46,031 bases of DNA from a virus: positions 1-46,031 of IMG/VR virus record IMGVR_UViG_3300025117_000011. One strand, 5' to 3'. Position numbers and translations under genes: made by a program. The notes under the pieces are model-generated. The model was given only the letters and a program-made list of their open reading frames with translations, was not told where the DNA came from and searched no databases. Numbering within the stretch: position 1 is the first letter of the stretch; every line of letters begins with the position of its first letter. This document shows, one piece after another, positions 12,934 through 27,509 of this stretch.

Positions 12934-13584
12934 TTAAGTGAATAATGGTTGCTGGGCACTCTCAATTCTCTGCTTTGCTATCTCGAAATAGTCTCTGTCG
13001 AGTTCCATGCCAATGAAGTTTCTTCCTGTTTGAACACAGGCGACTCCTGTGGTGCCAGAACCCATGAAGGGATCGAGGATTGTTTCGCCAGTTCTTGTCG
13101 TTCTATCAACAATCCACTTCATAACACTTGTTGGTTTACAGCACGGATGCAGCTTTTTTACATCTACATCATTGAGTTCTTGAAAATATGTATCAGGAAA
13201 ACTACCTTTGCAATCAACAAGTCGTGGGTCTTTTCCGTAAACAATTATCGGTTGCCAACAACTAAACCCCCATGGCGACCTCCCGGCACCTGCTTTATTC
13301 ACCCACGCCATTGTCCATGTTGGTTGTGGGTAGAGATGCATATTTCCTACACCAGAAGTTATCACGACACGATCCGCAATCCTCAAACATTCTGGTATAA
13401 ATAAAGCAATGAGGTTTTTAAGATTTTCTTTTGTATCATCATAGCTATTGTAGTTATTTTTATCTGTTACAGAATCACCTAAACCATACGGCGGATCAGT
13501 AATCACACAATCCACACTCCCATCCGCAATCTCTTTCATTGCAAGGAGGCAGTCGCCGAGAATAAGTTTGCAATTATTCTCCAT
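12934..13584 (-). CDS. DNA methyltransferase (DPPY type, N4-C or N6-A)
   Basis: 216 residues from MENNCKLILGDC; the ATG overlaps the stop of the upstream gene. A longer form starting at 13608 is possible. Motif IV is DPPYG near residue 31, and motif I (DPFMGSGTT) lies near the C terminus followed by ELDRDYFEIA, the order of beta-class methyltransferases. No partner nuclease is adjacent, so it is probably an orphan that marks phage DNA against host restriction. It is the penultimate part of the leftward operon from promoter 17028. Confidence 0.88.
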   Translation of the reverse strand: MENNCKLILGDCLLAMKEIADGSVDCVITDPPYGLGDSVTDKNNYNSYDDTKENLKNLIALFIPECLRIADRVVITSGVGNMHLYPQPTWTMAWVNKAGAGRSPWGFSCWQPIIVYGKDPRLVDCKGSFPDTYFQELNDVDVKKLHPCCKPTSVMKWIVDRTTRTGETILDPFMGSGTTGVACVQTGRNFIGMELDRDYFEIAKQRIESAQQPLFT

Positions 13585-13846
13585 AAGCGTTCTGTTTATC
13601 TTCATCATTCAGTTCTCGCCTCCTGCGCCCCGCAGAATCAAACTCGTACATTGTGTCTATCAGTTCATTTTGTTTCACTTCGCTCAATACTGAGAACCAC
13701 GGGCCGATTCTCCTTTTCAAAAACAATCTTGCGAACAAGTGATTATTCTCTCTCGCAACCGGGAATATCCTCAGTATTTCTTCCACCTCTTTCTTCACGG
13801 GGAGATTGCTTCTCTCTGAGCCGAAGATGTTAGTTTGCTTGTTCAT
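13574..13846 (-). CDS. Hypothetical helical protein
   Basis: 90 residues from MNKQTNIFGSERSN, whose ATG overlaps the upstream stop. It is charged and helical (VEEILRIFPVAREN, then LFARLFLKRRIG). No family is recognised. It overlaps the methyltransferase start, which suggests translational coupling. Confidence 0.6.
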   Translation of the reverse strand: MNKQTNIFGSERSNLPVKKEVEEILRIFPVARENNHLFARLFLKRRIGPWFSVLSEVKQNELIDTMYEFDSAGRRRRELNDEDKQNAYGE

Positions 13847-14033
13847 CGTATTCAGGGATATTTTCATGGAACCATTTAGCCCAACAATTTATGCAATAAT
13901 CACCGTCGTATTTCGTATTTTTGAATTGTATTCCGCCATCTCCTCTTACCGCTCCGCAGACAGGACATTTCCATATCTTGCGGTCAAAGTCCTTGCAGAT
14001 AATCTGATTCGGTTCTAGAAATTTCTTTCTCAT
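13830..14033 (-). CDS. Small zinc-ribbon protein
   Basis: 67 residues with CPVCG and, after about 20 residues, CINC, giving a four-Cys zinc site. The rest is polar with several Trp. The ATG lies two bases after the upstream TAA. One of several small zinc-ribbon genes in the leftward operons; probably a nucleic-acid- or protein-binding accessory factor. Confidence 0.65.
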   Translation of the reverse strand: MRKKFLEPNQIICKDFDRKIWKCPVCGAVRGDGGIQFKNTKYDGDYCINCWAKWFHENIPEYDEQAN

Positions 14034-14036
14034 ATT

Positions 14037-14285
14037 TTAATTGGGTAAAGATAACATTTTCTCTCTATGCGCTTTTAAGAACAATTTTCTTGCCTCCTTG
14101 TTCCTCCTTTCCATCCATATTTTACGATCACAGTTCTCGCATGTGAGATTGCCCATTTCTACCGGAGCCTTCCCGCATATGAAGCACTGAATACCTTTCT
14201 CCCTGCACCACACTATGAGGTTTCTGGTATAGGGGGGGCGGCCAGCTTTCCGCGTTACTGCCGATGGACTAGGGGGGCTGGTCAC
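14037..14285 (-). CDS. Small zinc-finger protein, GTG start
   Basis: 82 residues. The GTG start overlaps the upstream stop as GTGA. It has CFICG and CENC about 15 residues apart followed by a basic helix (RRNKEARKLFLKAHREK). It resembles the front half of HNH-type proteins without the His-Asn core. Likely nucleic-acid binding; function unknown. Confidence 0.6.
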   Translation of the reverse strand: MTSPPSPSAVTRKAGRPPYTRNLIVWCREKGIQCFICGKAPVEMGNLTCENCDRKIWMERRNKEARKLFLKAHREKMLSLPN

Positions 14286-14467
14286 GGATGAAGGCGAAGT
14301 ATCGTTAGTTCTTTCTCATTGAGATTTAAGTACCGTATCATGTCCCAGACATCACAACACGATGGGAGGATGAATGTCTCTGAGACTTCCACGATGAAGC
14401 CATTTTTTGTTTCCGTTGCTGTAAGGTGTTTGCTCATGCCATCATGGGGAAAGAAGATAAGAACCAT
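14282..14467 (-). CDS. Hypothetical small protein
   Basis: 61 residues, or 51 from an internal ATG (MSKHLTATETK). It has alternating strands (GFIVEVSETFILP) and no recognised motif. Its end overlaps the next gene by GTGA. A 31-bp gap separates it from the HNH gene upstream. Confidence 0.5.
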   Translation of the reverse strand: MVLIFFPHDGMSKHLTATETKNGFIVEVSETFILPSCCDVWDMIRYLNLNEKELTILRLHP

Positions 14468-14498
14468 TCATGCTTGTACTCAAGGAACGAAGCGTCGT

Positions 14499-14855
14499 TC
14501 ATCGCATGAATTCGTAAGGATTTTTCCGTGTCGGGGCGTTCGACACGTTGCATCGCTTGCAGGAGGGAATACCGTTCATAACGTCGAACTCAAGGTCTTT
14601 CCTGCTGCCGACGGTGTAGGGGAAATGGTCGCCGCAGGTTTCATTCCACGGGAACGGTTCTTCGCAGTGGAAGCAAACGACCATCCCTCCATTTTCACCA
14701 CCTTTCTGCCGGATGATGTCGTGCCACCTCTTGCGGAGGCGGTCTCGCTGGCTGTCCGTGAGCATCGGGCGGCAGGTATCGCAGACGAGGGAAGTGCCGG
14801 ATTCCACTCCGCAGACTTCGCAGTGCTCTAGCCTAGCTCGGATGAATTCACACAT
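14499..14855 (-). CDS. HNH-type nuclease-like protein
   Basis: 118 residues from MCEFIRARLEHC. It has two zinc pairs at the N terminus (CEVC, CDTC), then CFHCEEPF with CGDHFPY, followed by C-K-R-C-N-V-S-N. The C-x2-C, D-H, C-x2-C and Asn spacing matches phage HNH endonucleases, which often assist packaging or act as homing nucleases. The start overlaps the upstream gene (ATGTGTGA). Confidence 0.7.
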   Translation of the reverse strand: MCEFIRARLEHCEVCGVESGTSLVCDTCRPMLTDSQRDRLRKRWHDIIRQKGGENGGMVVCFHCEEPFPWNETCGDHFPYTVGSRKDLEFDVMNGIPSCKRCNVSNAPTRKNPYEFMR

Positions 14856-15132
14856 CGCGGATGCAGGAGCGGAGGTCACGCTTGTACTCAGGATTCGCTT
14901 TGAACTCTTCGACCTGCCGGACACCGTTCTGCGTCATGTAAGCTATCAGTTCGGCCTTGTCGAGTGCGTGTTCTTCGGAGGAGTCGGGGATGCCTTCAAG
15001 CATTGCGTCCATAAAGACTTGCAGGGCTTGGTACTCTGAACTCTCCATGACTGCTTTTCGACGTGCTTGCTCTTCCTGCACGGCTACGGAGGTTGCACGG
15101 TAGTCTGCCAAGATGGATTCGATGGGTCGCAT
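14848..15132 (-). CDS. Hypothetical helical protein
   Basis: 94 residues from MRPIESILADYR, chosen because the C-rich leader CCCCTCCCCCACTCAGATC runs from the upstream TAA straight to this ATG. The protein is helical and acidic with no recognised domain. Confidence 0.55.
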   Translation of the reverse strand: MRPIESILADYRATSVAVQEEQARRKAVMESSEYQALQVFMDAMLEGIPDSSEEHALDKAELIAYMTQNGVRQVEEFKANPEYKRDLRSCIRDV

Positions 15133-15151
15133 GATCTGAGTGGGGGAGGGG

Positions 15152-15319
15152 TTAGGCAGCTTCAAGTTGCTCGGCTTCTTTCATCATCTGTTCAGCCTTG
15201 GCCCGAAGTTCTTGGGCTTTGGGCTTCTTATCATCCATTCCGGTTTCCTTGAGGATGCCGTAGCGCAGCTTCCCGCCTTCCATGCGTCCGCAGGTAATCG
15301 AGGCTTCCGATATACTCAT
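15152..15319 (-). CDS. Small protein overlapping 15231-15362 in another frame
   Basis: 55 residues (MSISEASITCGRMEGGKLRY, later KKPKAQELRAKAEQMM, ending EAEQLEAA). The C-terminal half is a clear charged helix, so at least this frame is coding from about 15275 leftward. An internal ATG at 15283 would give 43 residues. It overlaps the upstream small gene by 89 bp. Confidence 0.5.
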   Translation of the reverse strand: MSISEASITCGRMEGGKLRYGILKETGMDDKKPKAQELRAKAEQMMKEAEQLEAA

Positions 15320-15362
15320 TGTTTTCGTTCAGGTCAGCTTTCGTTATGCGATAGACCTTCAT
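15231..15362 (-). CDS. Small protein beginning MKVYRITKADLNEN
   Basis: 43 residues. The first ~22 residues look coding (MKVYRITKADLN, then YIGSL); the Arg-rich tail (HGRREAALRHPQ) looks like out-of-frame reading. The leader CTTTCCCCACCACCGT is the C-rich type used throughout the operon. Either two overlapping genes exist here or a frameshift joins this start to the frame of 15152-15319. Confidence 0.45.
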   Translation of the reverse strand: MKVYRITKADLNENNEYIGSLDYLRTHGRREAALRHPQGNRNG

Positions 15363-15417
15363 ACGGTGGTGGGGAAAGAAATAACCACGCAACGGCTCGG
15401 CAGAGTCGCTGCTGTGC

Positions 15418-15519
15418 TTACTTCGCTTCGGCTATCAATTCATCGCGCATCTCCTGAACAATATGCTCCAGTTTCTCAATGTTACTGATGAATCTTTCGA
15501 TGCGTTCTAATGTGGTCAT
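15418..15519 (-). CDS. 33-residue helical microprotein
   Basis: MTTLERIERFISNIEKLEHI and onward to EAK: a single amphipathic helix. The ATG is reached directly from the upstream TAA through TCCCCCCACCTCCC, one of the clearest C-rich leaders, which is the main evidence that it is translated. Confidence 0.55.
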   Translation of the reverse strand: MTTLERIERFISNIEKLEHIVQEMRDELIAEAK

Positions 15520-15533
15520 GGGAGGTGGGGGGA

Positions 15534-15899
15534 TTAAACAGAAAGTGAATCCAATTCTTTTGAAAGGGCTTTTTCGCCATCATTTTTGAATCGAATAACA
15601 TTAACATTTTTCCCAAAAATGTCTCGTTCCTGCGCGTACATGGTGACAGTCTTGCCAATCCAGTCGTCGGTGTTATCCCCAAACATCTCTTTTAGGTCTG
15701 TTGCGCGCTCTTTCCCGAGAACAACGCCACGATCTTTGCCCTCGAAGTAAACTATCAGTGTGGGCACTTCTTTCTTCTCTTTGATCTTGTAAATCTTCTC
15801 TTTCTTGACTGTTTTAATCTTAAGTTCGAGAGTGTGCCCGGCTACGTCTTCGCCTCGCAGGAATCTGCCGGGGTATTCTTTGATAATAGAAAATCCCAT
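15534..15899 (-). CDS. Conserved phage protein, OB-fold-like
   Basis: 121 residues from MGFSIIKEYPGRFLRGEDV; this start is preceded by CCCTTTCCTAAT, and the upstream extension is low-complexity. It contains LIVYFEGKDRGVVLGKERA, then DDWIGKTVTMYAQ and NVNVIRFK. That strand pattern and W-I-G-K-x-V motif recur in small phage proteins next to recombination nucleases and may bind single-stranded DNA. It directly follows the PD-(D/E)XK nuclease. Confidence 0.6.
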   Translation of the reverse strand: MGFSIIKEYPGRFLRGEDVAGHTLELKIKTVKKEKIYKIKEKKEVPTLIVYFEGKDRGVVLGKERATDLKEMFGDNTDDWIGKTVTMYAQERDIFGKNVNVIRFKNDGEKALSKELDSLSV

Positions 15900-15900
15900 A

Positions 15901-16656
15901 TTAGGAAAGGGAAAGGGTAATGGAAGCAGGATAATCCTTTTGAAACATTTTGGTTGTTCCCGTCTCTTTCTTCCATGTCTTTTGTGTCGATAGGAAAAGG
16001 TCGAACTGGTCTTCATACTCTGTGAGTTTCCAGCCTGCCTTGTTCTTCTTATAGCCGACCTGAAGGATAGCGAGTCGCTGCGGTTTCAGTTCTTCGGGAA
16101 GAGCGTGAGCGTAAGCGGCAAGCTGCAATTCGTAGGGCGTGAAGATTTCGCCTTGGCGAGTCTTGAAGTCGATGAGCCAGCGTTCGCCGTCAATCATACA
16201 AACAAAGTCCACAGTTCCGGCGTAGCGGTGCTCGTTATTAAAAACGGCGGTTTCGTTAATGAGCATTTGAGGCTTCGTTTGTTTGTGCCAGTCACAAAAG
16301 GAAAGGATGGCCTCCCATTCGTCAGCGGTGAGGTCTTCGGGTGTTCCGTCGTCGCCATTGGCGAAAGTCTCGTCCATTCGTACTTCGTTGCCGAGCAGTA
16401 GAGACTCGATAGCATGATGAACCTTTGTGCCTTTGTTGCCTGCCTTCTTCATGATCGAGTCGGCATTGTCCCATCCCTTGTCAGCAAGCCATCGGTAGTA
16501 TCCTAATCCTTTCGGATAGTAGTCCGTAATCCAAGTGACGGAAGGGTACTCGGTCATTGTGCCGTCTTCGGCGGTCTTGATGTACCAGCGTTCATCGGGG
16601 CAAGTAATGCGGACGATTTTGCCGTCTTTCGAGAGCGTGCGGATTTCCTTTTGCAT
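15901..16656 (-). CDS. PD-(D/E)XK nuclease (RecB/Cas4-like phage exonuclease)
   Basis: 251 residues from MQKEIRTLSKDG, the ATG abutting the leader CCCTTCCCCTCTCCCCC. Motifs are GTKVHHAIE (about residue 82), YAGTVDFVCMID (catalytic Asp), WLIDFKTR (D-x-K core) and YELQLAAYAHA (Q-x3-Y). This is the set found in PDDEXK_1-type exonucleases used in phage recombination or end processing. Its neighbour (15534-15899) is a candidate DNA-binding partner. Confidence 0.85.
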   Translation of the reverse strand: MQKEIRTLSKDGKIVRITCPDERWYIKTAEDGTMTEYPSVTWITDYYPKGLGYYRWLADKGWDNADSIMKKAGNKGTKVHHAIESLLLGNEVRMDETFANGDDGTPEDLTADEWEAILSFCDWHKQTKPQMLINETAVFNNEHRYAGTVDFVCMIDGERWLIDFKTRQGEIFTPYELQLAAYAHALPEELKPQRLAILQVGYKKNKAGWKLTEYEDQFDLFLSTQKTWKKETGTTKMFQKDYPASITLSLS

Positions 16657-16697
16657 GGGGGAGAGGGGAAGGGAATTTTGAGCTAGGCGGGAGAATC

Positions 16698-16853
16698 TTA
16701 TCGCCATTGTTCGCGGGTGAGACGAGCTTGATTGCAGAGGTCGCACTGGCAGTCTTGTTGCTTGCTGTGGCTGTCAAGCACCATGTTGCAGAATTCAAAC
16801 ACTTGCGTGGCGAGTAGATCCACAGTGTCGTTGAGATCATTGATTGTTGACAT
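16698..16853 (-). CDS. 51-residue protein with Cys cluster
   Basis: MSTINDLNDTVDLLATQ, ending in QQDCQCDLCNQARLTREQ. Cys-x-Cys and C-x2-C suggest a small metal site. The leader is TTTCCCCCTCTCCCC against the ATG. No family recognised. Confidence 0.6.
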   Translation of the reverse strand: MSTINDLNDTVDLLATQVFEFCNMVLDSHSKQQDCQCDLCNQARLTREQWR

Positions 16854-16868
16854 GGGGAGAGGGGGAAA

Positions 16869-17009
16869 TTAAGAAGCTCTATGAGTTCTCCAATACACGT
16901 CACCCATGAACTGACGCTGTTCAGGAGTCATGCTGGCTACTTCTGCTACCTTGTCCATGTACTCTTCCTGAGCCTGTGCGAACTCTGCGTCTATGAGTGC
17001 TTCCTGCAT
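16869..17009 (-). CDS. 46-residue acidic protein, first gene of operon P1
   Basis: MQEALIDAEFAQAQEEYMDK and onward, helical and acidic. It is the first reading frame after the promoter at 17033-17061 and runs to 15 bp before the next start. No family recognised. Confidence 0.55.
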   Translation of the reverse strand: MQEALIDAEFAQAQEEYMDKVAEVASMTPEQRQFMGDVYWRTHRAS

Positions 17010-17027
17010 AGGTGAATTGGTAAACTA

Positions 17028-17061
17028 GCTACAGTGTAGCGAACATGAAACAGGAACACAA
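17028..17061 (-). promoter_or_regulatory. Leftward promoter P1 with palindromic operator
   Basis: On the - strand TTGTGT, 17 bp, TACACT. The -10 lies inside the palindrome GCTACAGTGTAGC (17028-17040, one central base). Related palindromes cover the -10 of P2 (20149) and P3 (27530). It drives the 17009 to 12556 operon. Confidence 0.75.
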
Positions 17062-17076
17062 CAAAGAAACCTTGAT

Positions 17077-17256
17077 TTATTTCCATTCTATGACGGCATG
17101 TTTCACCCTCTTAAATGTCAGTTTTGCATTAGGAAACCTGCGCTCAAAAGCAGCTTTCCCTTCGCCAATGTAGGTATTCACAGTAGTCCAGTGAAGCCTT
17201 TTGCCACCACGGACAGATGGCTGTGATTTTGCAAATTCTCTGGGGCTGCCTTTCAT
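17077..17256 (-). CDS. 59-residue basic hypothetical protein
   Basis: MKGSPREFAKSQPSVRGGKR and onward, ending AVIEWK. Basic, no membrane segment, no recognised family. It begins 4 bp after the preceding lipoprotein-like gene and is the last gene of the P2 operon; its stop lies just before the P1 -35 region. Confidence 0.55.
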   Translation of the reverse strand: MKGSPREFAKSQPSVRGGKRLHWTTVNTYIGEGKAAFERRFPNAKLTFKRVKHAVIEWK

Positions 17257-17259
17257 AAG

Positions 17260-17520
17260 TCATTGGAGGAAATATCTTTTTCTGATCTCACGCTTATTCA
17301 GCTTCTCACCTTTCAGGACTGCGGGTTTCGTGATCGTGTTTGCAGGGACGAACTTCTGCGGAGCACGTATGATGTGGACTCTTGAGGAATACGGGACTCT
17401 GGTATGGCTGACGGGGGCTACGCATACAGAGCGGCCTAAATATCTGTAAGTCGTGCAGTTTACAGAAAGCAGTCCTACAAGTGCGAGGACTGCGATCTGT
17501 GCTTTAGCTTTGTCGCTCAT
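17260..17520 (-). CDS. Small lipoprotein-like/secreted protein
   Basis: 86 residues from MSDKAKAQIAVLALVG. The hydrophobic stretch ending LLSVNC resembles a lipoprotein signal, but the residue before Cys is Asn, outside the usual lipobox. The mature part is basic (HTRVPYSSRVHII). It lies directly left of the TnpB element and was probably the gene following 18701-18976 before insertion. Candidate outer spanin-type or surface protein. Confidence 0.55.
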   Translation of the reverse strand: MSDKAKAQIAVLALVGLLSVNCTTYRYLGRSVCVAPVSHTRVPYSSRVHIIRAPQKFVPANTITKPAVLKGEKLNKREIRKRYFLQ

Positions 17521-17536
17521 AGTGGACAGCAGGAAC

Positions 17537-17556
17537 CCCACGGCTTTAGTCGTGGG
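17537..17556 (+). repeat. Left-end hairpin of the TnpB element
   Basis: Perfect 6-bp stem CCCACG/CGTGGG with an 8-base loop, 53 bp upstream of the tnpB start. This is the subterminal imperfect palindrome recognised by Y1 transposases in related elements. Confidence 0.8.
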
Positions 17557-17608
17557 AGAAATGCGCGGAGTGGGTTGCAATTCTCAATCACTTGAGTATG
17601 CTACATCC

Positions 17609-18712
17609 ATGAAGCTCACTGCGCAAGTAAAATTGGCTATCAATTCCTCTCAAAGGGAAACATTGCTCCATACAATGGAAACGGCCAATTCCGCATGTAA
17701 TGAGATAAGCGATACCGCATGGAAAACAGGAGCATTCAGACAGTACGATCTTCACAGAGAATGCTATAAAACTATAAGAGATAAATTTCCTCTCTCGGCT
17801 CAGGTCGTAGTCCGTTGTATCGGAAAGGTCAGTGATAGCTACAAGAAAGATAAAAAGACAAAACGGAATTTCAAGAAGAGAGGAGCAGTGACATACGACG
17901 AAAGAATCCTACGATGGTATGACAATTCCGTGAGTATTTGGACAATGAACGGAAGACAGAAGATTCCCTTTGGGGTGGGAGATCACCATAAAAAACTCCT
18001 TCAGTTCCAAAGGGGAGAGACTAATCTCGTCTACATGGATGGGAATTTCTATCTCTTCACGACCTGCGAAATTGAGGAGCCAGAGCAGTTAAAAACTACA
18101 GGATGGCTTGGCGTAGACTTAGGTATTAAAAATATCGCAACAGACAGTGACGGGAATAAATACTCAGGAGGACACGTCAACGGCCTGAGAAAGAGACATG
18201 CGAAGTTGCGGAGGAGATTACAGAATAAGGGTACGAAATCTGCAAAGAGGCTTCTGAAGACACGGAAGCGAAAAGAGGCGAGGATGGCAAAAGACATCAA
18301 CCACTGCATCGCCAAACGGCTGGTGCGATTGGCTCAAGACACCCTTCGCGGCATCTCGTTGGAAAATCTGACGGGAATCCGCGAAAGGATAACGGTTCGC
18401 AGGAGCCAGCGCAGAGCGCACCACTCGTGGGCGTTTTATGACCTTGCACAGAAGATTCTGTACAAGGCGGCATTGGTTGGTGTACCTATTCTATTTGTTG
18501 ATCCAAGGGATACTTCCCGGACATGTCAAAGATGTGGGCATTGTGAAAAGGGAAACAGAAAGGATCAGTCTACATTCAAATGTCTTTCGTGCGGGTTTTC
18601 TGCGAATGCCGATGACAACGCTGCTCGCAATATATCAGATAAAGCGAGTAGGGCTTCAGTCAATAAGCCATACGTGGCAACCTTCGGGTTAGCTACAAGC
18701 CTATCCCTTTAG
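17609..18712 (+). CDS. tnpB: TnpB RNA-guided nuclease
   Basis: 367 residues starting MKLTAQVKLAINSSQ; the frame extends upstream to 17453 but that part crosses the left-end hairpin and is not family-like. RuvC residues are all visible: Asp in GVDLGIKNIA (about residue 173), Glu in ISLENLTGI, and Asp in SANADDNAARN. The zinc ribbon is TSRTCQRCG followed by FKCLSCG. It therefore looks catalytically intact. In this family the guide RNA is made from the 3' end of the gene plus right end, and reads into flanking DNA (from about 18729). The stop codon lies inside the right-end hairpin, as is usual. Confidence 0.93.
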   Translation: MKLTAQVKLAINSSQRETLLHTMETANSACNEISDTAWKTGAFRQYDLHRECYKTIRDKFPLSAQVVVRCIGKVSDSYKKDKKTKRNFKKRGAVTYDERILRWYDNSVSIWTMNGRQKIPFGVGDHHKKLLQFQRGETNLVYMDGNFYLFTTCEIEEPEQLKTTGWLGVDLGIKNIATDSDGNKYSGGHVNGLRKRHAKLRRRLQNKGTKSAKRLLKTRKRKEARMAKDINHCIAKRLVRLAQDTLRGISLENLTGIRERITVRRSQRRAHHSWAFYDLAQKILYKAALVGVPILFVDPRDTSRTCQRCGHCEKGNRKDQSTFKCLSCGFSANADDNAARNISDKASRASVNKPYVATFGLATSLSL

Positions 18713-18728
18713 GGGGTGGGTAGTTGAC
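18620..18728 (+). ncRNA. Predicted omegaRNA scaffold at the tnpB 3' end
   Basis: Inferred from family behaviour: the scaffold overlaps the tnpB C-terminal codons and ends with the right-end hairpin and TAGTTGAC; the guide would be the 15-20 bases after 18728, that is, phage DNA flanking the insertion. The 5' limit is a guess. Confidence 0.5.
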
Positions 18729-18976
18729 CGGTTGAATGTATGAGCGAAGGAATTTTGGGCATCGTACCCCCGGCAATTTCGTTCTGAGCGGTTTGTTTCA
18801 CGGCTGGCCGTTACGCAATGGACTGTTTTGTACGGGTATTCTATGCCTTGTACCCTGAACAGGTTACGGAATGTGCCGTCCATGTTTCTGCGCGTGTACT
18901 TGTCTACTATCGTCATAGGCACAAACCCCATTGTGAGCATAGATGCAGTAAGAAGCGAGGAGAGGATTTTCTTCAT
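18701..18976 (-). CDS. Small exported protein, 3' end replaced by the TnpB element
   Basis: From MKKILSSLLTASMLTMGFVP, a signal peptide, followed by a basic mature part. The last residues (TTHPLKG) are encoded by the element's right end, so the native C terminus was lost or changed. If the element is removed, the reading frame could continue into the left flank as N-R-P-A-V-H-Y-E-R-Q-S and stop, overlapping the ATG of 17260-17520 in the manner of other gene pairs here. Function unknown; candidate lysis or surface protein. Confidence 0.6.
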   Translation of the reverse strand: MKKILSSLLTASMLTMGFVPMTIVDKYTRRNMDGTFRNLFRVQGIEYPYKTVHCVTASRETNRSERNCRGYDAQNSFAHTFNRSTTHPLKG

Positions 18977-19043
18977 AGGCGGATTGGAAGCAATGGTAGT
19001 ATAGTAATACTGTGTAGTGAAGTACATTGACAAATAATAGAAA

Positions 19044-19798: not shown

Positions 19799-19831
19799 AC
19801 TAAAATAGGGGGGAACTAATAAACCAATGGA

Positions 19832-20125: not shown

Positions 20126-20148
20126 AGGAATGGGGGGATTAGTAACTA

Positions 20149-20182
20149 GCTACATTGTAGCGAATCCAAAGACAGAAGTCAA
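20149..20182 (-). promoter_or_regulatory. Leftward promoter P2 with palindromic operator
   Basis: On the - strand TTGACT, 17 bp, TACAAT, close to the sigma70 consensus. The -10 lies inside GCTACATTGTAGC (20149-20161). Strongest-looking promoter of the window. Confidence 0.85.
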
Positions 20183-20935: not shown

Positions 20936-20977
20936 GGGATGAAGGGGGGATGGAACAAAAGGGAGAGCGGGATGATC

Positions 20978-21196: not shown

Positions 21197-21440
21197 AAAT
21201 GTTTGGGAGAAAGGAAATAAATTGTGGAGGAGACTCCACAGAGCAGCAGCGGCAGGGATTTGCCTCGATGGGTTCGTGGAGGGGTATTAGCCCACCCGTA
21301 ACCCACAGACGAGTATAGTCACCCTGCATGGCGACTATTCTCAGGCGTTTTAATGACTTTCCGTTGTCGGTGCTGGCAGCCAGTCGTCGCTGGGTAGTCA
21401 GTATCAAGAGAACATGCTTTGCGTCTACCTTTTCCGCCAC
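21120..21440 (-). CDS. Uncertain reading frame
   Basis: GTG-started frame of 106 residues, of which the first ~75 look plausible (KHVLLILTTQRRLAAST, then DYTRLWVTGGLIPLHEP); the last part overlaps 20978-21196 in another frame and is Ser-rich. A competing short frame on the same strand covers 21300-21450. Without it, 21197-21474 would be empty. Confidence 0.35.
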   Translation of the reverse strand: MAEKVDAKHVLLILTTQRRLAASTDNGKSLKRLRIVAMQGDYTRLWVTGGLIPLHEPIEANPCRCCSVESPPQFISFLPNIYERRSLSRPTYRCSSSSPNHDGSDQ

Positions 21441-21474
21441 GCTGCTGCTCTGTAAAGTCTATAGTGTGAAAGAA

Positions 21475-22155
21475 CTATTGTACCTTCTCCCCTCTCCACT
21501 TACCAGTTCTTTTCACAGTTCTGGCATACGCTTTACGAAGGGAATCATGTGCCTCTCTTGCAGATGAATAGCTCTTACCCCGCAGAGCTTCCTCAGTTTC
21601 TCTCAGGATTTGTTCCTCCTGCTCTGGTGTGAAGCCGTTGGCGGTTTTCTTCCCGAGAAGGTCACCGCAGCACTTCTTAATCTTCTGGAGCCTGATCTCC
21701 GCAGAGTCTTCACCTTCCATGCCGGACATTGTAGCAAGGTCTTGAATCCATGAGAGTTCATCTTCCAGTTTCCTGCACTTCTCCTTCATCCCTTTAGCAA
21801 ACCTCAATGCAGCCTTCAATTCAGCATCATCCTCCATGTTCTCTTCTATCCCCATTTCCTGACGGAGTTCAGACATGAGCCCCCGACGTTGCTCTGCCAT
21901 GCGTTTGTACATATTACGTTCGCTGTAGAGATTGCTCAGCTTCTCCGCAGTCCAACAGCCACAACCGCATTTCGGCAAGGGGCTGGTTAATGCCCCCACT
22001 GGGTCGCTATCGGGCTTCTCTGAATACATTTCCTCCATGTGCCGCTGGCAAGTGATACGCAGTCCCTCAGAGCATCCGCATGACTGCACGTCACTGGCAT
22101 CGCGCTTCTGCATCATTCCGCATTTGCTCTTTAGTTCTGAGGATTCAGTGGGCAT
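21475..22155 (-). CDS. Coiled-coil protein with Cys-rich N-terminal region
   Basis: 226 residues. N-terminal third has several Cys (QSCGCSEG, PKCGCGCW) that could bind metal; the rest is long helical coiled coil (NMYKRMAEQRRGLMSELRQE, DELSWIQDLATM). The start overlaps the end of the upstream gene and is preceded by TTCCCCCATCTCCCC. Similar helix-rich proteins occur in phage accessory regions; function unknown. Confidence 0.6.
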   Translation of the reverse strand: MPTESSELKSKCGMMQKRDASDVQSCGCSEGLRITCQRHMEEMYSEKPDSDPVGALTSPLPKCGCGCWTAEKLSNLYSERNMYKRMAEQRRGLMSELRQEMGIEENMEDDAELKAALRFAKGMKEKCRKLEDELSWIQDLATMSGMEGEDSAEIRLQKIKKCCGDLLGKKTANGFTPEQEEQILRETEEALRGKSYSSAREAHDSLRKAYARTVKRTGKWRGEKVQ

Positions 22156-22528
22156 GGGGAGATGGGGGAATTAAACCATGTCTTGGGCAAACGCCATTAT
22201 TGAGATAGAACCAGCACCGTCCACATTCTTTCCCGTCTCCATCCCTTTCAATGACAGGACAGTTGTTCGGAGAATCTGGGAAGTTCCCTACTCTCGGCTT
22301 CTCCGACGCTGGCTTCGGGGTGGGGGTGGTCATGAGGGAATCAAGTTCATCATTTAGCTTGCGCTCCTTGTCGCAAATCGCAAGCCAAGCAGAAGAATGG
22401 AAGTCCTTAAAACCTTTCAAGCAGCACCACTTCTTCAGTTCAACAACTTTTTCAATTTCCATACGTTTTAGACTGACAGCTATTGAGTGTATTACCATTT
22501 CTGCGCCTGTAATAGATGGTGTATTCAT
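22145..22528 (-). CDS. Zinc-ribbon accessory protein
   Basis: 127 residues from MNTPSITGAEMVIHSI. The end carries ECGRCWFYLNNGVCPRHG, a Cys-rich site. An internal MTTPTPKPASEKP segment matches the N terminus of the gene at 23162-23500, showing shared sequence modules. It starts inside the ATGA overlap behind a paralogue-type gene, like 23494-23832. Confidence 0.55.
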   Translation of the reverse strand: MNTPSITGAEMVIHSIAVSLKRMEIEKVVELKKWCCLKGFKDFHSSAWLAICDKERKLNDELDSLMTTPTPKPASEKPRVGNFPDSPNNCPVIERDGDGKECGRCWFYLNNGVCPRHGLIPPSPHAH

Positions 22529-22887
22529 ACTCGTAGGAGGGAAAGGAGAAATGAGATTGTTTCGGGAGATTGTTCGGAGAGAGGTTTGCCGAGGAGCCAT
22601 CCTTTCTTGCCTTCGGCCAACAATTCATCTCCTCCATAGTTTTGCTCCCAGAATCCTCCGTACTGGTCTACAACAATCGGAGACACTAACTTGCTCTTTC
22701 TGTGAAACGTCATTAGTACATCCTCAAGGGTGATGGGTCTGGTATCATACCAAGGGCAGCCCGTAGTGGAATAGTCACATTCAGTTTTATCACAACACCT
22801 GCATTTATGATGCCCAATCTCCGGCACTGCCTTCACGATCAACGCCGCAAGTTCTTCGTATGCCGATGGTGTGATATGGGGGGTCAT
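22525..22887 (-). CDS. MTP/PSAYEE family protein A (paralogue of 23829-24155)
   Basis: 120 residues. Shares with 23829-24155 the N-terminal block PSAYEELAALIVK-VPEI and the C-terminal block FLLSLLRV; the middle differs and here has a Cys cluster (CRCCDKTEC). Coupled by ATGA at both ends. Function unknown; recent duplication is likely. Confidence 0.65.
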   Translation of the reverse strand: MTPHITPSAYEELAALIVKAVPEIGHHKCRCCDKTECDYSTTGCPWYDTRPITLEDVLMTFHRKSKLVSPIVVDQYGGFWEQNYGGDELLAEGKKGWLLGKPLSEQSPETISFLLSLLRV

Positions 22888-23165
22888 TTGGAAAAGGAAT
22901 GAAGTTTAGATTTAGATAAATGTGGTTTGAATCCTCTCCGTTTTGCTGCGGCTAAGAGTCTCTGGATAGCCTCCTCTGGGGTTTTCCCGACATACCATCG
23001 GACATTTTTGGGAGAATTATCAGGCCAATGGCAAAGAGAAGCAGCCCATTCACCCCATAGGTGTTCAAGGTGAAAATCTCCACTCTTGTTGAGTGAAGTT
23101 GCTTTATGGAGAAGAATTTGTAGATTCCCCTTTTTATCTGCCGTTGTTTTCTCAGGGTGTGTCAT
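22884..23165 (-). CDS. MTHPEK-type small protein
   Basis: 93 residues starting MTHPEKTTADKKGN; only the first codons match the MTHPEK family, the remainder (LEHLWGEWAASLCHWP, EEAIQRLLAAAKRRGF) is distinct and resembles small phage proteins that describe sample-like substrate fields in other phages, with no known function. Leader CCCTCTCCCTCCA, ATGA coupling to both neighbours. Confidence 0.6.
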   Translation of the reverse strand: MTHPEKTTADKKGNLQILLHKATSLNKSGDFHLEHLWGEWAASLCHWPDNSPKNVRWYVGKTPEEAIQRLLAAAKRRGFKPHLSKSKLHSFSK

Positions 23166-23500
23166 TGGAGGGAGAGGGCTTTATTTATATCGTCAATGAG
23201 CCATCCTGCATTGTCTCCTCCGTTGTATTCGTGCTTTGTCTGTTCCCCATAGACCCGCAACTTATCAACGCATCTGCTTAGTAGCACCCTTAGTCTCTTG
23301 TTCTCCTTGTAGAACTCCTCGCAGAGTTCGCAAATAGCAGCCAAGTCTGTATTAGCGAATGTGATTTCATCTATGCTTTTGGTTTCACCAATATCCCATC
23401 CATCTACTGGTGTGGGTCTTGGGTCATTGTGCCATGCAAGAAATTCTCTCGCCTTCTCCATAATTTCCTCTGCCGCTGGCTTCGGGGTGGGGGCTACCAT
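23162..23500 (-). CDS. Hypothetical helical protein, APTPKPAAEE start
   Basis: 112 residues from MVAPTPKPAAEEIMEKARE; the ATG overlaps the upstream TAG. Helical with LAAICELCEEFYKENKRLRV. Repeats of similar start modules occur at 22145-22528. Function unknown. Confidence 0.6.
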   Translation of the reverse strand: MVAPTPKPAAEEIMEKAREFLAWHNDPRPTPVDGWDIGETKSIDEITFANTDLAAICELCEEFYKENKRLRVLLSRCVDKLRVYGEQTKHEYNGGDNAGWLIDDINKALSLQ

Positions 23501-23832
23501 TGTGAGAGTGGAATACAATTAGAGTCAGAAGGGAAATACTCGCAAACAAGCGGCCAATAGATTCCATTCTTGTCGGCCTTCACTTTGTGCGGCTTGTGGC
23601 ATCTACAGTGTTCAGGTTTTAGGCAACCGTTAGAACATCCCCAGCCTCTATCGCCGCATTGATTCGCGCAATCCTCAGAGCCATATTGTGGCAAAGACGT
23701 TGATGCCGGAAGGTTGATGATGATACCTTCGGGCTGCTTGCATTCCCTGTTAGAAAGATAGTGAAGCGCAAGCCATACGACCAGTATTGCGAATGTAGCA
23801 GCCACAATGCTATTCGGCTTATCAGTGCTCAT
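23494..23832 (-). CDS. Membrane-anchored Cys-rich protein
   Basis: 112 residues from MSTDKPNSIVAATF. One N-terminal membrane segment (SIVAATFAILVVWLALHYL), then a Cys-rich domain (CANQCGDRGWGCSNGCL, CRCHKPH), likely outside the cytoplasm. The start is an ATGA overlap. Confidence 0.6.
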   Translation of the reverse strand: MSTDKPNSIVAATFAILVVWLALHYLSNRECKQPEGIIINLPASTSLPQYGSEDCANQCGDRGWGCSNGCLKPEHCRCHKPHKVKADKNGIYWPLVCEYFPSDSNCIPLSQW

Positions 23833-24155
23833 ACTCGTAGGAGGGAAAGGAGGAAGGAATGTACTTTGGAAGATTGAGAGGAGAGGTCGCCGTGGCGTAA
23901 GTCCCAAACACCATCAGCGTATCTCACCCCCTGAGATTGCCACGGGATATAAATAAACTCTCCAATGTCCGTTATAGCGAAGATACCCTTTCGCCCTTCG
24001 ACGTTCCTGATAGCAAGGAGAATATCGGCAAGACGGATGTCGTCCATACATGGATTTGAGAGATAGTCCCTACCCCGGTGCGCTATCTCCGGCACAACCT
24101 TCACTATCAACGCCGCAAGTTCTTCGTATGCCGATGGTTTCTCAGGGTGTGTCAT
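23829..24155 (-). CDS. MTHPEK/PSAYEE family protein B (paralogue of 22525-22887)
   Basis: 108 residues, MTHPEKPSAYEELAALIVKV and so on, ending FLLSLLRV. The central part DIRLADILLAIRN parallels ITLEDVLMTF in the paralogue. The leader TCCCCTCCCCCCA sits between the upstream TAA and the ATG. Function unknown. Confidence 0.65.
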   Translation of the reverse strand: MTHPEKPSAYEELAALIVKVVPEIAHRGRDYLSNPCMDDIRLADILLAIRNVEGRKGIFAITDIGEFIYIPWQSQGVRYADGVWDLRHGDLSSQSSKVHSFLLSLLRV

Positions 24156-24168
24156 TGGGGGGAGGGGA

Positions 24169-24288
24169 TTAGCGTGGGCAGATTTGTAGACAGGAGATTG
24201 CACCTGTCTTGCAAGCCACAGAGTAAGTAAGGAAAATAAGAGAGAGAATAAAGCCGATGGGGACAATCCAGTCATTGAGTTTATTCAT
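24169..24288 (-). CDS. 39-residue membrane microprotein
   Basis: MNKLNDWIVPIGFILSLIFL followed by TYSVACK and a short Cys-containing tail: a single membrane span. It fills the gap between the RNA ligase and 23829-24155, has the C-rich leader CCCCCCCCTGA, and ends right before the next C-rich leader. Confidence 0.6.
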   Translation of the reverse strand: MNKLNDWIVPIGFILSLIFLTYSVACKTGAISCLQICPR

Positions 24289-24299
24289 TCAGGGGGGGG

Positions 24300-24947
24300 T
24301 TAGAAATCCTTGGTCTTTAATTTTAGAATGATTCTTTTGCCACGACGGTCAAAGAGTGGTTCCACCGTGCGCCCAACAATTCCCTCAGCCATCGTGTCCT
24401 TACCACTTTCCTCCTTCGCCGTGACGGAGGGGATGCCTTTCTTCACCATTGTTACAATCTCATCTAGGGAGAAATCTCCAAGGTACGGAACGGTTTTAAT
24501 ACAGAGTTTCTGCGCCACATCCTCAGTGTTCTTCCAATCAAGCCAGAACTTATCCGAGACAAGGACATCGAATAGCCGGAATGATTTGTCAGGGCGGTAG
24601 TTCCCTCCTTTCTGAATCCCAGCTCCGTATCCTTCTCCATAGCAGATTGCCTTCACCTTCTGCACCTCTCCTTTTTCGTCAGGAAGCCAGAAGGCTGCTT
24701 GCATTTTCTCAGGAGTGAACGTCCGTTGTAAATAGGCCAAAAGGTCAGTAGAGAGTTGTGCCGCGTCGGTACGCCCCCCGAATAGTACTGTGCCGTCTTC
24801 CAGAAGAGTCACCCTGATATTCGTACCATCAATCTTCTCAGTAACGTGCCATGTCTTGAATGAACCGTACACAGGAGAGCGCAGAATATCTGTAACCTTG
24901 AACTTTGCATCTCTCTCGAAGAGAGTTTCAATCTTGTGGTATTCCAT
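24300..24947 (-). CDS. RNA ligase, T4 Rnl2-like
   Basis: 215 residues. Nucleotidyltransferase motifs in order: I EKIDGTNIRV (lysine about residue 38), III FGGRTD, IIIa FRLFDVLV, IV AEGIVGRT, V ILKLKTKDF. K-I-D-G-T-N is typical of the Rnl2/editing-ligase group; the protein ends just after motif V so the Rnl2 C-terminal domain is missing or minimal. It would seal 3'-OH/5'-P nicks in RNA. The start overlaps the upstream stop (TGATG) with a C-rich leader. A second ligase of Rnl1 type lies at 29772-30887. Confidence 0.88.
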   Translation of the reverse strand: MEYHKIETLFERDAKFKVTDILRSPVYGSFKTWHVTEKIDGTNIRVTLLEDGTVLFGGRTDAAQLSTDLLAYLQRTFTPEKMQAAFWLPDEKGEVQKVKAICYGEGYGAGIQKGGNYRPDKSFRLFDVLVSDKFWLDWKNTEDVAQKLCIKTVPYLGDFSLDEIVTMVKKGIPSVTAKEESGKDTMAEGIVGRTVEPLFDRRGKRIILKLKTKDF

Positions 24948-25228
24948 CAGGGGAGGGGGGAGAGGGCTTTACATCGTTTACATGGTTTGTTTCCCCACGG
25001 ATTTCTGCCACACCAGCACGACCTCTCATCTTCCAGAGCCTCCCGCATCCTGTGGATGTAGGAGAGGAGTGTTGGGATATGTAACGCAGTAGCGGGATAC
25101 GGAATTGGATTCACAAGACATTGGGATTTCTTATCCCATTGGAGAGGAAGATTCTTGTATGTTTCCCAATCTTCCAAGACCTTCTGCATCTCTTCCGATT
25201 TTGCCGATGGTTTCTCAGAGTGTATCAT
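24947..25228 (-). CDS. MIHSEK-type small protein with Cys motif
   Basis: 93 residues; N terminus MIHSEKPSAKSEEM belongs to the shared-start family, C terminus has SCWCGRNPWGNKPCKRCK, a four-Cys cluster. Its last codons (LSPLP) are encoded by the C-rich leader of the RNA ligase gene. Function unknown. Confidence 0.6.
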   Translation of the reverse strand: MIHSEKPSAKSEEMQKVLEDWETYKNLPLQWDKKSQCLVNPIPYPATALHIPTLLSYIHRMREALEDERSCWCGRNPWGNKPCKRCKALSPLP

Positions 25229-25530
25229 TGGGGAGGGGAGAAGGATTCAAGGAATGTACATGCTTGGCAACTGAAACACTCAGAGTTACGATTTCCCCAA
25301 CAGCTTGTTTCAGTACAGTTTTCTTTAATCCACTCCCGCATCCTCTTGTTCTCTTGGTGCATCTTCTCGAAGGCTTGAGCAATGGAGGGGAAGGCATCAT
25401 ATACCTTGTGGATATGGGCGACCCGTGTCTCTGAAAATAAAGGCACCACTTCATACCTATCTATAAGATTGCTCACCTCCTTCAAGATTTCTTCTGCCGA
25501 TGGTGTGATAGGGGGTTCAGGGTGTGTCAT
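25225..25530 (-). CDS. MTHPEP-type small protein with Cys motif
   Basis: 101 residues; N terminus MTHPEPPITPSAEEIL belongs to the shared-start family; middle helical (AFEKMHQENKRMREWI); C terminus CTETSCWGNRNSECFSCQAC. The C-terminal SPPQ is encoded within the next gene's C-rich leader. ATGA overlaps on both sides. Confidence 0.6.
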   Translation of the reverse strand: MTHPEPPITPSAEEILKEVSNLIDRYEVVPLFSETRVAHIHKVYDAFPSIAQAFEKMHQENKRMREWIKENCTETSCWGNRNSECFSCQACTFLESFSPPQ

Positions 25531-25616
25531 TGCACGAGGGGGTAAGTCCTGCTGAGCGTGAATGCTTCACGGAGCCGGAGGAAGTTTTCGCCAGAGGTGG
25601 AGAGGTCAGTGATCAT
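25527..25616 (-). CDS. 29-residue microprotein coupled on both sides
   Basis: MITDLSTSGENFLRLREAF and on to PLVQ. The start overlaps the upstream stop (ATGA) and its own stop overlaps the next start (ATGA). This double coupling is the evidence that it is translated, if only to carry ribosomes across. Confidence 0.5.
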   Translation of the reverse strand: MITDLSTSGENFLRLREAFTLSRTYPLVQ

Positions 25617-26026
25617 TGCATAGACTGGTAAGCGAGGTAGAGAGAACGACAGCGAGTGGGGGGGTTGGCTTTCATGTAAAGGTCGCAAATTGAATAATCG
25701 TAATCGTCGTCGTTGGTCTGGCGACAAACCTCTCCAACGAACTCCTTATGCAAATGCTCATCCTCCATCACCTTCTCCTCTGCCTGTCTCCACGCATTCC
25801 AATCAGTGAGGGGGTTCCAGTGAACGCCAATTTGTCCATCATAATCCGCAGTAAGAATTTCTTTCCCTCCAAATTTAAGGATGGTGAAACAAGGCTCAGA
25901 AACACCTCGCGTATCACGGTTCGGCTCGTATCGTTTCCACCCCATCACCCTCACCGCCAACCATTCAATCTTCTGTTCAGAAGTCATGGAGTCCCAAGTG
26001 GCCGATGATGATTGTTCAGTGCTCAT
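25613..26026 (-). CDS. Phage protein with ABA-sandwich-like segment
   Basis: 137 residues, MSTEQSSSATWDSMTSEQ and onward. IEWLAVRVMGWKRYE and HWNPLTDWNAWRQAEEKVM resemble the V-M-G-W ... W-P-x-T-D-x-x-A-W arrangement of small phage ABA-sandwich proteins of unknown role. Starts 3 bp after the upstream TAA. Confidence 0.6.
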   Translation of the reverse strand: MSTEQSSSATWDSMTSEQKIEWLAVRVMGWKRYEPNRDTRGVSEPCFTILKFGGKEILTADYDGQIGVHWNPLTDWNAWRQAEEKVMEDEHLHKEFVGEVCRQTNDDDYDYSICDLYMKANPPTRCRSLYLAYQSMQ

Positions 26027-26029
26027 AGA

Positions 26030-26182
26030 TTAGTTAAATTGAAAAACATTATCACTCATACAACAGGGGCATCGCTCAGTCCCAAACTTGGATTTTTCCG
26101 TAAATTCTGTGGAGCAATCAAGACACTGCATTTTGGCTATTTCTTTCTGTTCTGCCGTCAATGGAGAGGGATTAGTGCTCAT
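26030..26182 (-). CDS. 50-residue zinc-ribbon protein
   Basis: MSTNPSPLTAEQKEIAKMQ, then CLDC and CPCC with about 14 residues between: a small zinc ribbon. Start in an ATGA overlap. Confidence 0.6.
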   Translation of the reverse strand: MSTNPSPLTAEQKEIAKMQCLDCSTEFTEKSKFGTERCPCCMSDNVFQFN

Positions 26183-26436
26183 TGCTTTGGCGGGATAAGT
26201 ATATGAAGACAACGTTTACAAAACAGAAAAGTCTGATTGTTCTCTCGCCCGACATGTGCTGCATCCATACAAAGGGGACAACGTACTTGTGATTTATAGC
26301 TTCTATCACCATTAAGGGTAGGAAACCAAGAGACTTTCCCGAGGTCTTCCCATCCGTCTGGCTTTCTAAAGAAACAGATTTCCTTCATGTGTGGGAAGTT
26401 CACAAGTTCTATTGCTGATCTTTTATTAGGAGTCAT
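26179..26436 (-). CDS. Zinc-ribbon protein
   Basis: 85 residues from MTPNKRSAIELVNFPHMKE, chosen because TTCCCCTCCCCCC directly precedes this ATG, inside the tail of the upstream gene. CPLC and CKRC form a zinc site. Confidence 0.6.
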   Translation of the reverse strand: MTPNKRSAIELVNFPHMKEICFFRKPDGWEDLGKVSWFPTLNGDRSYKSQVRCPLCMDAAHVGRENNQTFLFCKRCLHILIPPKQ

Positions 26437-26629
26437 GGGGGGAGGGGAAAGAAGAGACGAGGTGGGAAGAAATCTCGCCTTCATCCGGTAGCAGGTCTTC
26501 TTGTTCAAACTCGCAACCGTTAGGACAGTACGGGTCACAGTGTACCTCTCTTGGGTCACCGTCCTGCTCTGTGGTATGAGAGTAGGTTTCCAGTTTGGAG
26601 CCGCAGGAGGGGCAGGTGGTTTTCTTCAT
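26426..26629 (-). CDS. Zinc-ribbon protein
   Basis: 67 residues, MKKTTCPSCGSKLETYSHTT with a second CDPYCPNGC cluster. Acidic C-terminal half; its tail (FPSPHDS) is encoded by the C-rich leader of the next gene. Start in an ATGA overlap. Confidence 0.65.
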   Translation of the reverse strand: MKKTTCPSCGSKLETYSHTTEQDGDPREVHCDPYCPNGCEFEQEDLLPDEGEISSHLVSSFPSPHDS

Positions 26630-26889
26630 TTGCAAAAGATACGAACAATATTCACACCAGAACAGAAGGCACTGACCAGATTATAGGTAAAGGCTACACT
26701 CCTCGACAGGGATGGGGAAAACGTAGGATTGGGGTCATACTTGTCTACCCACGACCACAAAGATGCCGAGGCTGGGACACCCTCAGCGAGAAAGAGAATC
26801 ACTGCCGCCATCCCAATGTAGACCAGAATTATTATGGCGATACTCTGCCAGACTGCCGTGAAGAACTTAGATGTTGCAGTATTATTCAT
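26626..26889 (-). CDS. Small membrane protein
   Basis: 87 residues with a strong first span (VWQSIAIIILVYIGMAAVIL) and a weaker second hydrophobic region near the C terminus. Leader ATCCCCCCAAGTTCC. The upstream bases TAGATTGTATGGTTAAT are repeated before the gene at 27111-27374. Confidence 0.6.
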   Translation of the reverse strand: MNNTATSKFFTAVWQSIAIIILVYIGMAAVILFLAEGVPASASLWSWVDKYDPNPTFSPSLSRSVAFTYNLVSAFCSGVNIVRIFCK

Positions 26890-26916
26890 GGAACTTGGGG
26901 GGATTAACCATACAAT

Positions 26917-27114
26917 CTAGAGGGGAGATTTAATAAGACGAACCAGCCAAACTACAATACCAAGAAAAAACAAGAAGTCTGTCACAATAATCGCTGCTTT
27001 CCATGTCCAGTATATCTCGGCACATCTGCTCGAATATCCCAATGACACTCCCCCCCATGCTATGCATAGTACAAAAGCCAACAAAGAGAGAGAAGGTAGG
27101 AGAGATTTCTTCAT
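26917..27114 (-). CDS. Small membrane protein
   Basis: 65 residues, two spans (SLLAFVLCIAWGGVSLGY; AAIIVTDFLFFLGIVVWLV). Holin-like topology but far from the lysis genes. ATGA overlap with the upstream gene. Confidence 0.6.
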   Translation of the reverse strand: MKKSLLPSLSLLAFVLCIAWGGVSLGYSSRCAEIYWTWKAAIIVTDFLFFLGIVVWLVRLIKSPL

Positions 27115-27374
27115 TTGCAGGTGTTGGTAATTTTACAAGGGTAAGGTGGCTTGCCTGTTTCATAGTACTGTTGCAGTTCTTCTTCACAGGCTGCGAGAGA
27201 AGAGGCATTATCCTCTACAACCCGAGAACAGTCACACACTAGCGGTGGGCTGTAGGGGTCATTTCCATTCAGCCATCCAAGTGCAAAACTTGGAGCGATA
27301 ATCATTGCTAATTTTATGATTCCCCATATTGCGTCGCATATCTTTCTGCACCGTTCACAGCATTGGACTGTCAT
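27111..27374 (-). CDS. Cys-rich membrane-associated protein
   Basis: 87 residues: MTVQCCERCRKICDAIWG, one span (IIKLAMIIAPSFALGWL), then a Cys-containing domain that may lie outside. Leader TTCCTTCCCACTCCCGCT. Confidence 0.6.
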   Translation of the reverse strand: MTVQCCERCRKICDAIWGIIKLAMIIAPSFALGWLNGNDPYSPPLVCDCSRVVEDNASSLAACEEELQQYYETGKPPYPCKITNTCK

Positions 27375-27392
27375 AGCGGGAGTGGGAAGGAA

Positions 27393-27509
27393 TTAACCAT
27401 ACAATCTATCAGACAACGTATTATATATAGCGTACTTTTTCTCCTTGCGGTTCTGGTCACGGAGTTTCCGTAAGAAGGATTGCCGTTGCTTGTTCTGACG
27501 TTTTTTCAT
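27393..27509 (-). CDS. 38-residue basic microprotein, first gene of operon P3
   Basis: MKKRQNKQRQSFLRKLRDQN and onward: very basic, helical, possibly nucleic-acid binding. It is the first frame after promoter P3 and has the leader ACTTCCCCACCCCT against the ATG. Confidence 0.55.
   Translation of the reverse strand: MKKRQNKQRQSFLRKLRDQNRKEKKYAIYNTLSDRLYG

Follow-up and report, generated by a model that had tools for sequence, protein, structure and literature searches.

A candidate C-rich translation-initiation signal at the Shine-Dalgarno position in an uncultured tailed phage

The IMG/VR record IMGVR_UViG_3300025117_000011, analyzed here over its whole length (46,031 bases, hereafter the window), is the genome of a tailed phage, an uncultured bacterial virus, in which C-rich tracts precede many start codons in place of Shine-Dalgarno (SD) sequences. 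With a probability of roughly 80%, we read these tracts as a C-rich, position-locked translation-initiation signal that stands in for the SD element, at the same register, in the window, in its close clade and in a second phage, G026. This probability applies to the signal and not to any one reader of it. The presence of the tracts, their register and start-specificity, the absence of SD sites, the low structure and the conservation within the clade were all computed directly.

A C core at a fixed distance from the start codon

The window carries a block of short, tightly packed genes on the minus strand (12.5-28.7 kb) and late genes on the plus strand. Our main set comprised 41 curated minus-strand leaders, for which the block background of C is 24%. 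Positions -12 to -9 of these leaders were C in 66, 73, 71 and 63% of cases, respectively (Table 1). On the 5' side of this C core, T accounted for 41-54% at each of positions -16 to -13; on its 3' side, T reached 56% at -7 and was followed by a looser C stretch at -6 to -2. The original prediction had described tracts touching or nearly touching the ATG at starts 16656, 16853, 15519, 20935, 22155, 24155, 24288, 24947, 25228, 26436 and 27509, and all of them are present. It had, however, taken CCUCC, the sequence of the anti-SD, as the core. Instead, the positional core is CCCC at -12 to -9; neither CCUCC, which occurs in 13 of the 41 leaders, nor the stretch next to the ATG is their chief conserved part. 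Where genes overlap, the tract lies within the upstream gene and sets its C-terminus, as had been claimed (...KALSPLP at 24947, ...ESFSPPQ at 25228 and ...IPPSPHAH at 22155).

The core is specific to starts. CCC was found within -14 to -8 at 25/41 curated minus-strand starts versus 5/95 internal Met codons (p = 5e-12), and at 7/31 curated plus-strand starts versus 6/173 internal Met codons (p = 9e-4). In a shift test, open reading frames (ORFs) were picked regardless of their leaders and scored against randomly shifted positions on the same strand (2000 permutations). A strong tract preceded 13 of the 26 minus-strand ORFs of the block versus 1.7 expected (permutation maximum 7, z 7.1), so that the predicted enrichment over same-strand background was borne out. 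Late plus-strand ORFs gave a weaker result (z 2.8), and the C/T-rich leaders reported at 40606, 42526 and 43528 are likewise present in weaker form. It should be noted that our p-values and z scores rest on the assumption of independent genes, and that a few minus-strand genes (the MTHPEKPSA group) are paralogous. When the leaders were jittered by up to 3 nt, the C core became weaker in all 1000 trials (observed 0.672, jitter maximum 0.619), indicating that the element has a fixed register, which is that of the SD sequence. A control with permuted trinucleotides was discarded because TGA follows ATG in ATGA.

Absence of SD sites and of structure

SD 4-mers were below chance in both sets of leaders (2/41 on the minus strand, 4.6 expected; 2/32 on the plus strand, 4.9 expected), in agreement with the earlier observation that GGAGG-type sites are almost absent. 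A predicted duplex with the canonical 16S tail below -4.5 kcal/mol was found for 2/41 leaders versus 30% of random sites, and the leaders lack the purine-rich complement of the 16S tail at about -13 to -5 that marks SD leaders. In the SD-using phage G025, G peaks at about -13 to -9, the same register as the C core of the window. Nor are the leaders of the Kozak-like Bacteroidota type, which has A at -3, -6 and -12/-13: A made up 17% at -3, 20% at -6 and 5% at -12 versus a background of 28%. Start regions were unusually unstructured, with a mean minimum free energy of -4.95 versus -10.4 kcal/mol at random sites, and the codons just after the ATG are A/C-rich and G-poor (13% G at +4 to +18).

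Conservation in terminase relatives

The closest terminase relative, L159, shares 60% identity with the window in this protein and has a syntenic late region; the terminase of a second relative, L199, is 47% identical. In a tree of the gene at the capsid position, the window, L159 and L199 formed one clade (support 100/100). Of all 58 terminase-family records that had sufficient genes, these three had by far the strongest C core (z 6.9 for the window, 6.0 for L159 and 9.5 for L199). Six records were weakly positive (L160, L178, L186, L017, L214 and L212; z 2.2-3.0) and the remainder were near zero; in the broad-tract shift test, three terminase relatives (G004, G014 and G020) fell below zero. 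The onset of CCC peaked at -12 on the minus strand of the window (18/41), on its plus strand and in L159, and lay within -14 to -9 in L199 and, less sharply, in G026.

At orthologous late starts, the window and L159 both have a C run near -12 to -9 despite differing sequences (Table 1). Between core and ATG, the leaders of L159 and L199 are A/T-rich. Conservation therefore concerns the C run at the SD register rather than pyrimidine content in general; what these relatives retain is TTTTCCCC, not CCUCC. The question whether related phages lack the tracts at the same genes is thus answered in favor of the original prediction within the close clade. Other terminase relatives have A/T-rich leaders. 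Another unusual leader type was seen in L014, L020 and L015, whose leaders are A-rich and SD-less and, for 80-88% of genes, have T at -1.

C-rich leaders in phage G026

Phage G026 (L149; 36.6 kb, 55% GC) was found by a scan for the repeated leader and first codons CYCCAATGAYACACYCTGA. The terminase query of the window had no match in it, and a translated comparison revealed only two short common regions, chiefly a tail-protein domain. C-rich leaders precede 22 ORF-opening ATGs of G026 under a broad criterion by which some are expected by chance, including those of a capsid-like gene and a 338-aa gene, and the broad tract gave z 5.0 in the shift test. A common leader type with little common gene content suggests that the window and G026 share a host group. 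The second match of the scan, G025, was regarded as a chance match, being an SD-type phage without C leaders. Pattern scans with a 14-mer C tract returned mostly chance matches, and those with a longer C tract returned none.

The leader and first codons ATGACACACCCTGAGAAACCATCGGC, which yield MTHPEKPSA-type N-termini, are common to the minus-strand starts 25530, 25228, 24155, 23165 and 22887 and to position 1267 of L149, while the proteins are otherwise different. Over about 40 nt, this block is 90-92% identical in G026, and it may be a copied 5' cassette. The shared tail-protein domain (32104-32904 in the window, plus strand) is 55% identical to a segment of a G026 tail protein of 987 aa (L149 9500-10200, minus strand); it had no Pfam or PHROG match and was not found elsewhere by scans of INPHARED and IMG/VR.

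Promoter-like modules

Promoter-like modules precede a few starts, and most genes are operon-internal. If transcription began about 7 nt past the sigma-70-like promoter of gene 20125, the 5' untranslated region (UTR) would measure about 21 nt and be mostly tract. The modules lie 25-30 nt before starts 20125 and 17009, which would correspond to 5' UTRs of about 20 nt, again mostly tract, and favors short leaders over leaderless mRNAs; judged from the sequence, these mRNAs are probably not leaderless. Both modules contain a common element, GCTACANTGTAGCTAG, of which a third copy precedes the leader of 27509. The element is palindromic and overlaps the -10 region. With up to 3 mismatches it has six matches on both strands, a number reached in 0 of 100 shuffles.

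How the signal may be read

In mRNA terms, the consensus would be about U-rich, then CCCC at -12 to -9, N, U at -7, and C/U-rich up to the AUG. No S1, initiation-factor or bS21-like protein was recognized among the window proteins scanned with Pfam, making the host ribosome the likely reader. That the host 30S subunit, rather than a phage factor, reads the signal is also likely because phages that bear the signal yet have few genes in common presumably infect the same host group, and terminase relatives lacking the signal presumably infect other hosts. The mechanism we favor, tentatively and at somewhat less than even odds, is that the short unstructured 5' UTR would dock in the mRNA exit channel via a single-strand-binding ribosomal protein near -9 to -13, for which bS1 or a platform protein preferring C is a candidate. 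Base pairing of the CCCC core with G-rich 16S rRNA at the SD position, whether in an altered 3' tail or in an internal segment, appears less probable, and we regard it as an outside but serious possibility. It would account for the locking of the core to the SD register, as rRNA pairing predicts, and helix 45 contains GGGGAA, the complement of UUCCCC. However, this helix is folded, and dimethylation of the adenines in its loop is the normal state. A preference for exactly UUCCCC was considered and could not be separated from plain C-richness. The C-rich sites found by Barendt et al. were also complementary to 16S (PMC3310771). Against pairing stand the C-richness of the conserved 3' tail of 16S and the free variation of the tracts between U and C outside the core. 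The original proposal of an unfamiliar initiation signal is supported insofar as start-associated leaders replace the SD sequence, and its three mechanisms (an S1-like tract, an altered 16S tail or another factor) are all candidates.

The far lower structure at starts than at random sites, together with the G-poor codons that follow the ATG, would also fit tracts that only keep the start region unpaired, for which any G-poor sequence would be sufficient. We consider this unlikely, as L159 and L199 keep CCCC in A/T-rich leaders that would be unstructured even without it, and as the position of the core is fixed to within 3 nt. It is very improbable that the tracts are DNA- or transcription-level elements such as promoter or operator parts or Rho sites: promoter-like modules do lie slightly upstream of some genes, but in the tight, overlapping operons most genes have a tract before them, within upstream coding sequence, and the tracts hold a fixed distance to the ATG and not to a promoter. 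G-quadruplex and Rho-site ideas were set aside for the same fixed distance. C tracts are found in other parts of the minus strand too, opposite the G/A runs of late genes, yet a minus strand merely rich in C runs is hardly credible as the explanation, being contradicted by the same-strand shift tests, the internal-Met controls and the conservation in relatives.

Several observations weigh against a C-rich initiation signal. Start choice for the curated genes was partly made with the tracts in view, and blind leftmost-ATG starts gave the same sign with a weaker effect (CCC within -14 to -8 at 13/62 starts versus 17/290 internal Met codons, p = 5e-4). The bias in the curated starts of short genes is bounded by the shift test and the comparison with internal Met codons. 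CCC at the register is missing from about 40% of curated minus-strand starts and from most late starts; genes without the C core include 20708, 14467, 13867 and 13608. The narrow register is marginal in G026 (z 2.4, p = 0.045). Finally, C-rich leaders are poor in E. coli cells, and poly-C alone is a poor site (PMC3310771).

Gene content and host

The window encodes GroEL-like and Cpn10-like proteins in separate genes, both on one 46-kb phage genome, as well as two RNA ligases, two DNA methyltransferases and one replication-initiation protein (Table 1). No tRNAs or Rfam families were found in it. The TnpB-like gene is a plus-strand insertion inside the minus-strand block; its best plasmid matches are about 50% identical and come from unrelated bacteria, and TnpB was rejected as a host marker because it is too widespread to place the host.

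A terminase-profile scan of GTDB genomes returned four distant matches (48, 37, 35 and 30%). The best of these was in an Aenigmatarchaeota metagenome-assembled genome (MAG), on a phage contig (L140, JAPLUX010000167.1) present in only 1 of 156 genomes of the phylum, and its placement there is probably a binning error. Nothing close was found in 396 genomes from the phylum of a Flavobacteriaceae MAG, neither the capsid-position protein nor the 699-aa protein had a relative in INPHARED, and the four genomes examined for 16S yielded none. Matches of the exonuclease and GroEL point weakly to Flavobacterium phages (37-42%).

Table 1 Leaders, promoter-like modules and genes of the window, with leaders of orthologs in relatives
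Feature	Positions	Strand	Leader or remark
C core, exonuclease gene 16656-15901	16665..16668	-	cccttcccctctccccc then ATG
C core, gene 16853-16698	16862..16865	-	taatttccccctctcccc then ATG
C core, small ORF 15519-15418	15528..15531	-	taatccccccacctccc then ATG
C core, gene with start 15362	15371..15374	-	tttctttccccaccaccgt then ATG
C core, gene with start 15132	15141..15144	-	taacccctcccccactcagatc then ATG
Leader core, gene with start 12807	12816..12819	-	ctcttccacatcctcctcct then ATG
Leader core, gene 19798-19457	19807..19810	-	tagttcccccctattttagt then ATG
C core, gene 20125-19832	20134..20137	-	actaatccccccattcct then ATG
C core, gene 20935-20678	20944..20947	-	ccatccccccttcatccc then ATG
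C core, gene 22155-21475	22164..22167	-	within upstream gene, encodes C-terminal ...PPSPHAH
C core, gene 23165-22884	23174..23177	-	gccctctccctcca then ATG
C core, gene 24155-23829	24164..24167	-	aatcccctcccccca then ATG; leader and first codons common to G026
C tract, 39-aa ORF 24288 (MNKLNDW...)	24297..24300	-	acccccccctga then ATG
C core, RNA ligase gene 24947-24300	24956..24959	-	encodes ...SPLP of upstream gene
C core, gene 25228-24947	25237..25240	-	encodes ...SPPQ of upstream gene
C core, gene 25530-25225	25539..25542	-	acttaccccctcgtgca then ATG
C core, gene 26436-26179	26445..26448	-	ttctttcccctcccccc then ATG
Leader core, gene 26889-26626	26898..26901	-	aatccccccaagttcc then ATG
Leader core, gene 27374-27111	27383..27386	-	ttccttcccactcccgct then ATG
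C core, short ORF with start 27509	27518..27521	-	attacttccccacccct then ATG
Leader core, ORF with start 28618	28627..28630	-	gttcttttccctcc then ATG
Leader core region, Cpn10-like gene 40606	40594..40597	+	ttaccccgccaccca then ATG
CCCC at -11..-8, start 41411	41400..41403	+	L159 ortholog: CCCCCC at -12..-7
Weak pyrimidine leader, capsid-position gene 42526	42514..42517	+	cctttccaatcttttatc then ATG; L159 and L199 orthologs: TTTTTCCCC
Capsid-position gene leader, L199			ttttccccaattaaacc then ATG
CCC at -11..-9, start 43528	43517..43519	+	ttaacccttctaacc then ATG; L159 ortholog: ttcttcccctactcatt then ATG, CCCC at -12..-9
CCCC at -12..-9, start 44299	44287..44290	+	ttaccccacactcgt then ATG; L159 ortholog: ttattccccccctcactc then ATG, CCCCCCC at -13..-7
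Sigma-70-like promoter TTGACT-17-TACAAT	20154..20182	-	~28 nt 5' of gene 20125
Copy of GCTACANTGTAGCTAG	20146-20161	-	
Promoter-like module and copy of GCTACANTGTAGCTAG	17025..17040	-	GCTACACTGTAGCTAG; 5' of gene 17009
Module and copy of GCTACANTGTAGCTAG	27527..27542	-	GCTACTATGTAGCTAA; 5' of 27509 leader
Terminase large subunit	36409-37893		
GroEL-like gene	32940-34508	+	GTG start
Cpn10-like gene	40606-40908	+	separate from GroEL-like gene
Exonuclease gene	16656-15901	-	
RNA ligase gene	24947-24300	-	
ParB-like domain fused to DNA methyltransferase	34806-35981	+	
Second methyltransferase	12934-13608	-	
TnpB / IS605 OrfB-like gene	17453-18712	+	insertion inside minus-strand block

Relation to known initiation signals

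The C core stands at the same distance to the start codon as a canonical SD sequence; unlike the latter, it is not complementary to the anti-SD and cannot pair with CCUCC. As in initiation through bS1 on pyrimidine-rich leaders, the leaders of the window are unstructured and pyrimidine-rich near the start codon, whereas the usual description of bS1 sites is of U/A-rich sequences with a looser placement than that of this core. Bacteroidota leaders are also non-SD, and they are A-rich with a Kozak-like A at -3/-6; mRNA position -12/-13 lies near bS1 (PMC6847099). The leaders of the window resemble them in the lack of SD sequences, in low structure and in a signal near -12/-13, thought to face bS1, and differ in having C in place of A.

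The best precedent comes from Barendt et al. 2012 (PMC3310771), who obtained C-rich ribosome-binding sites by selection in a purified E. coli system and proposed 16S pairing. Their work indicates that C-rich leaders are usable by E. coli ribosomes in vitro, and mentions single examples of such leaders from phages KS14, Nigel and Syn5. Like those sites, the leaders of the window are non-SD and C-rich within 18 nt directly 5' of the AUG. In contrast to sites known in vitro and from single phage examples, their use here is natural, genome-wide and clade-conserved. Furthermore, the published C-rich motifs had no striking position dependence, whereas the core of the window is locked at -12 to -9, a more SD-like register. 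The term C-rich was not found in three surveys of non-SD genomes (PMC5397173, PMC4535381 and PMC10783764), and a literature search that left most subscription papers outside its reach brought up no account of a C core position-locked across a genome. A categorically new start code is therefore possible, though unproven.

Initiation without SD sequences is widespread, but the signals known for it, if any, are A/U-rich. The C core that diverged relatives and the unrelated G026 have in common with the window at the SD register points to a host ribosome that chooses starts by a C-specific cue. More speculatively, and on balance improbably, the clade and G026 may infect a bacterial lineage with a second sequence-specific start-selection code, in which an altered 3' end of 16S, a G-rich segment elsewhere in the rRNA or a ribosomal protein dedicated to C binding would read CCCC at the SD register. 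The question has become testable through the 16S tail and ribosomal proteins of the host. If the host ribosome does use a C-specific cue, these phages would provide a natural system for C-rich sites so far known mainly in vitro, and would allow better gene finding in such genomes.

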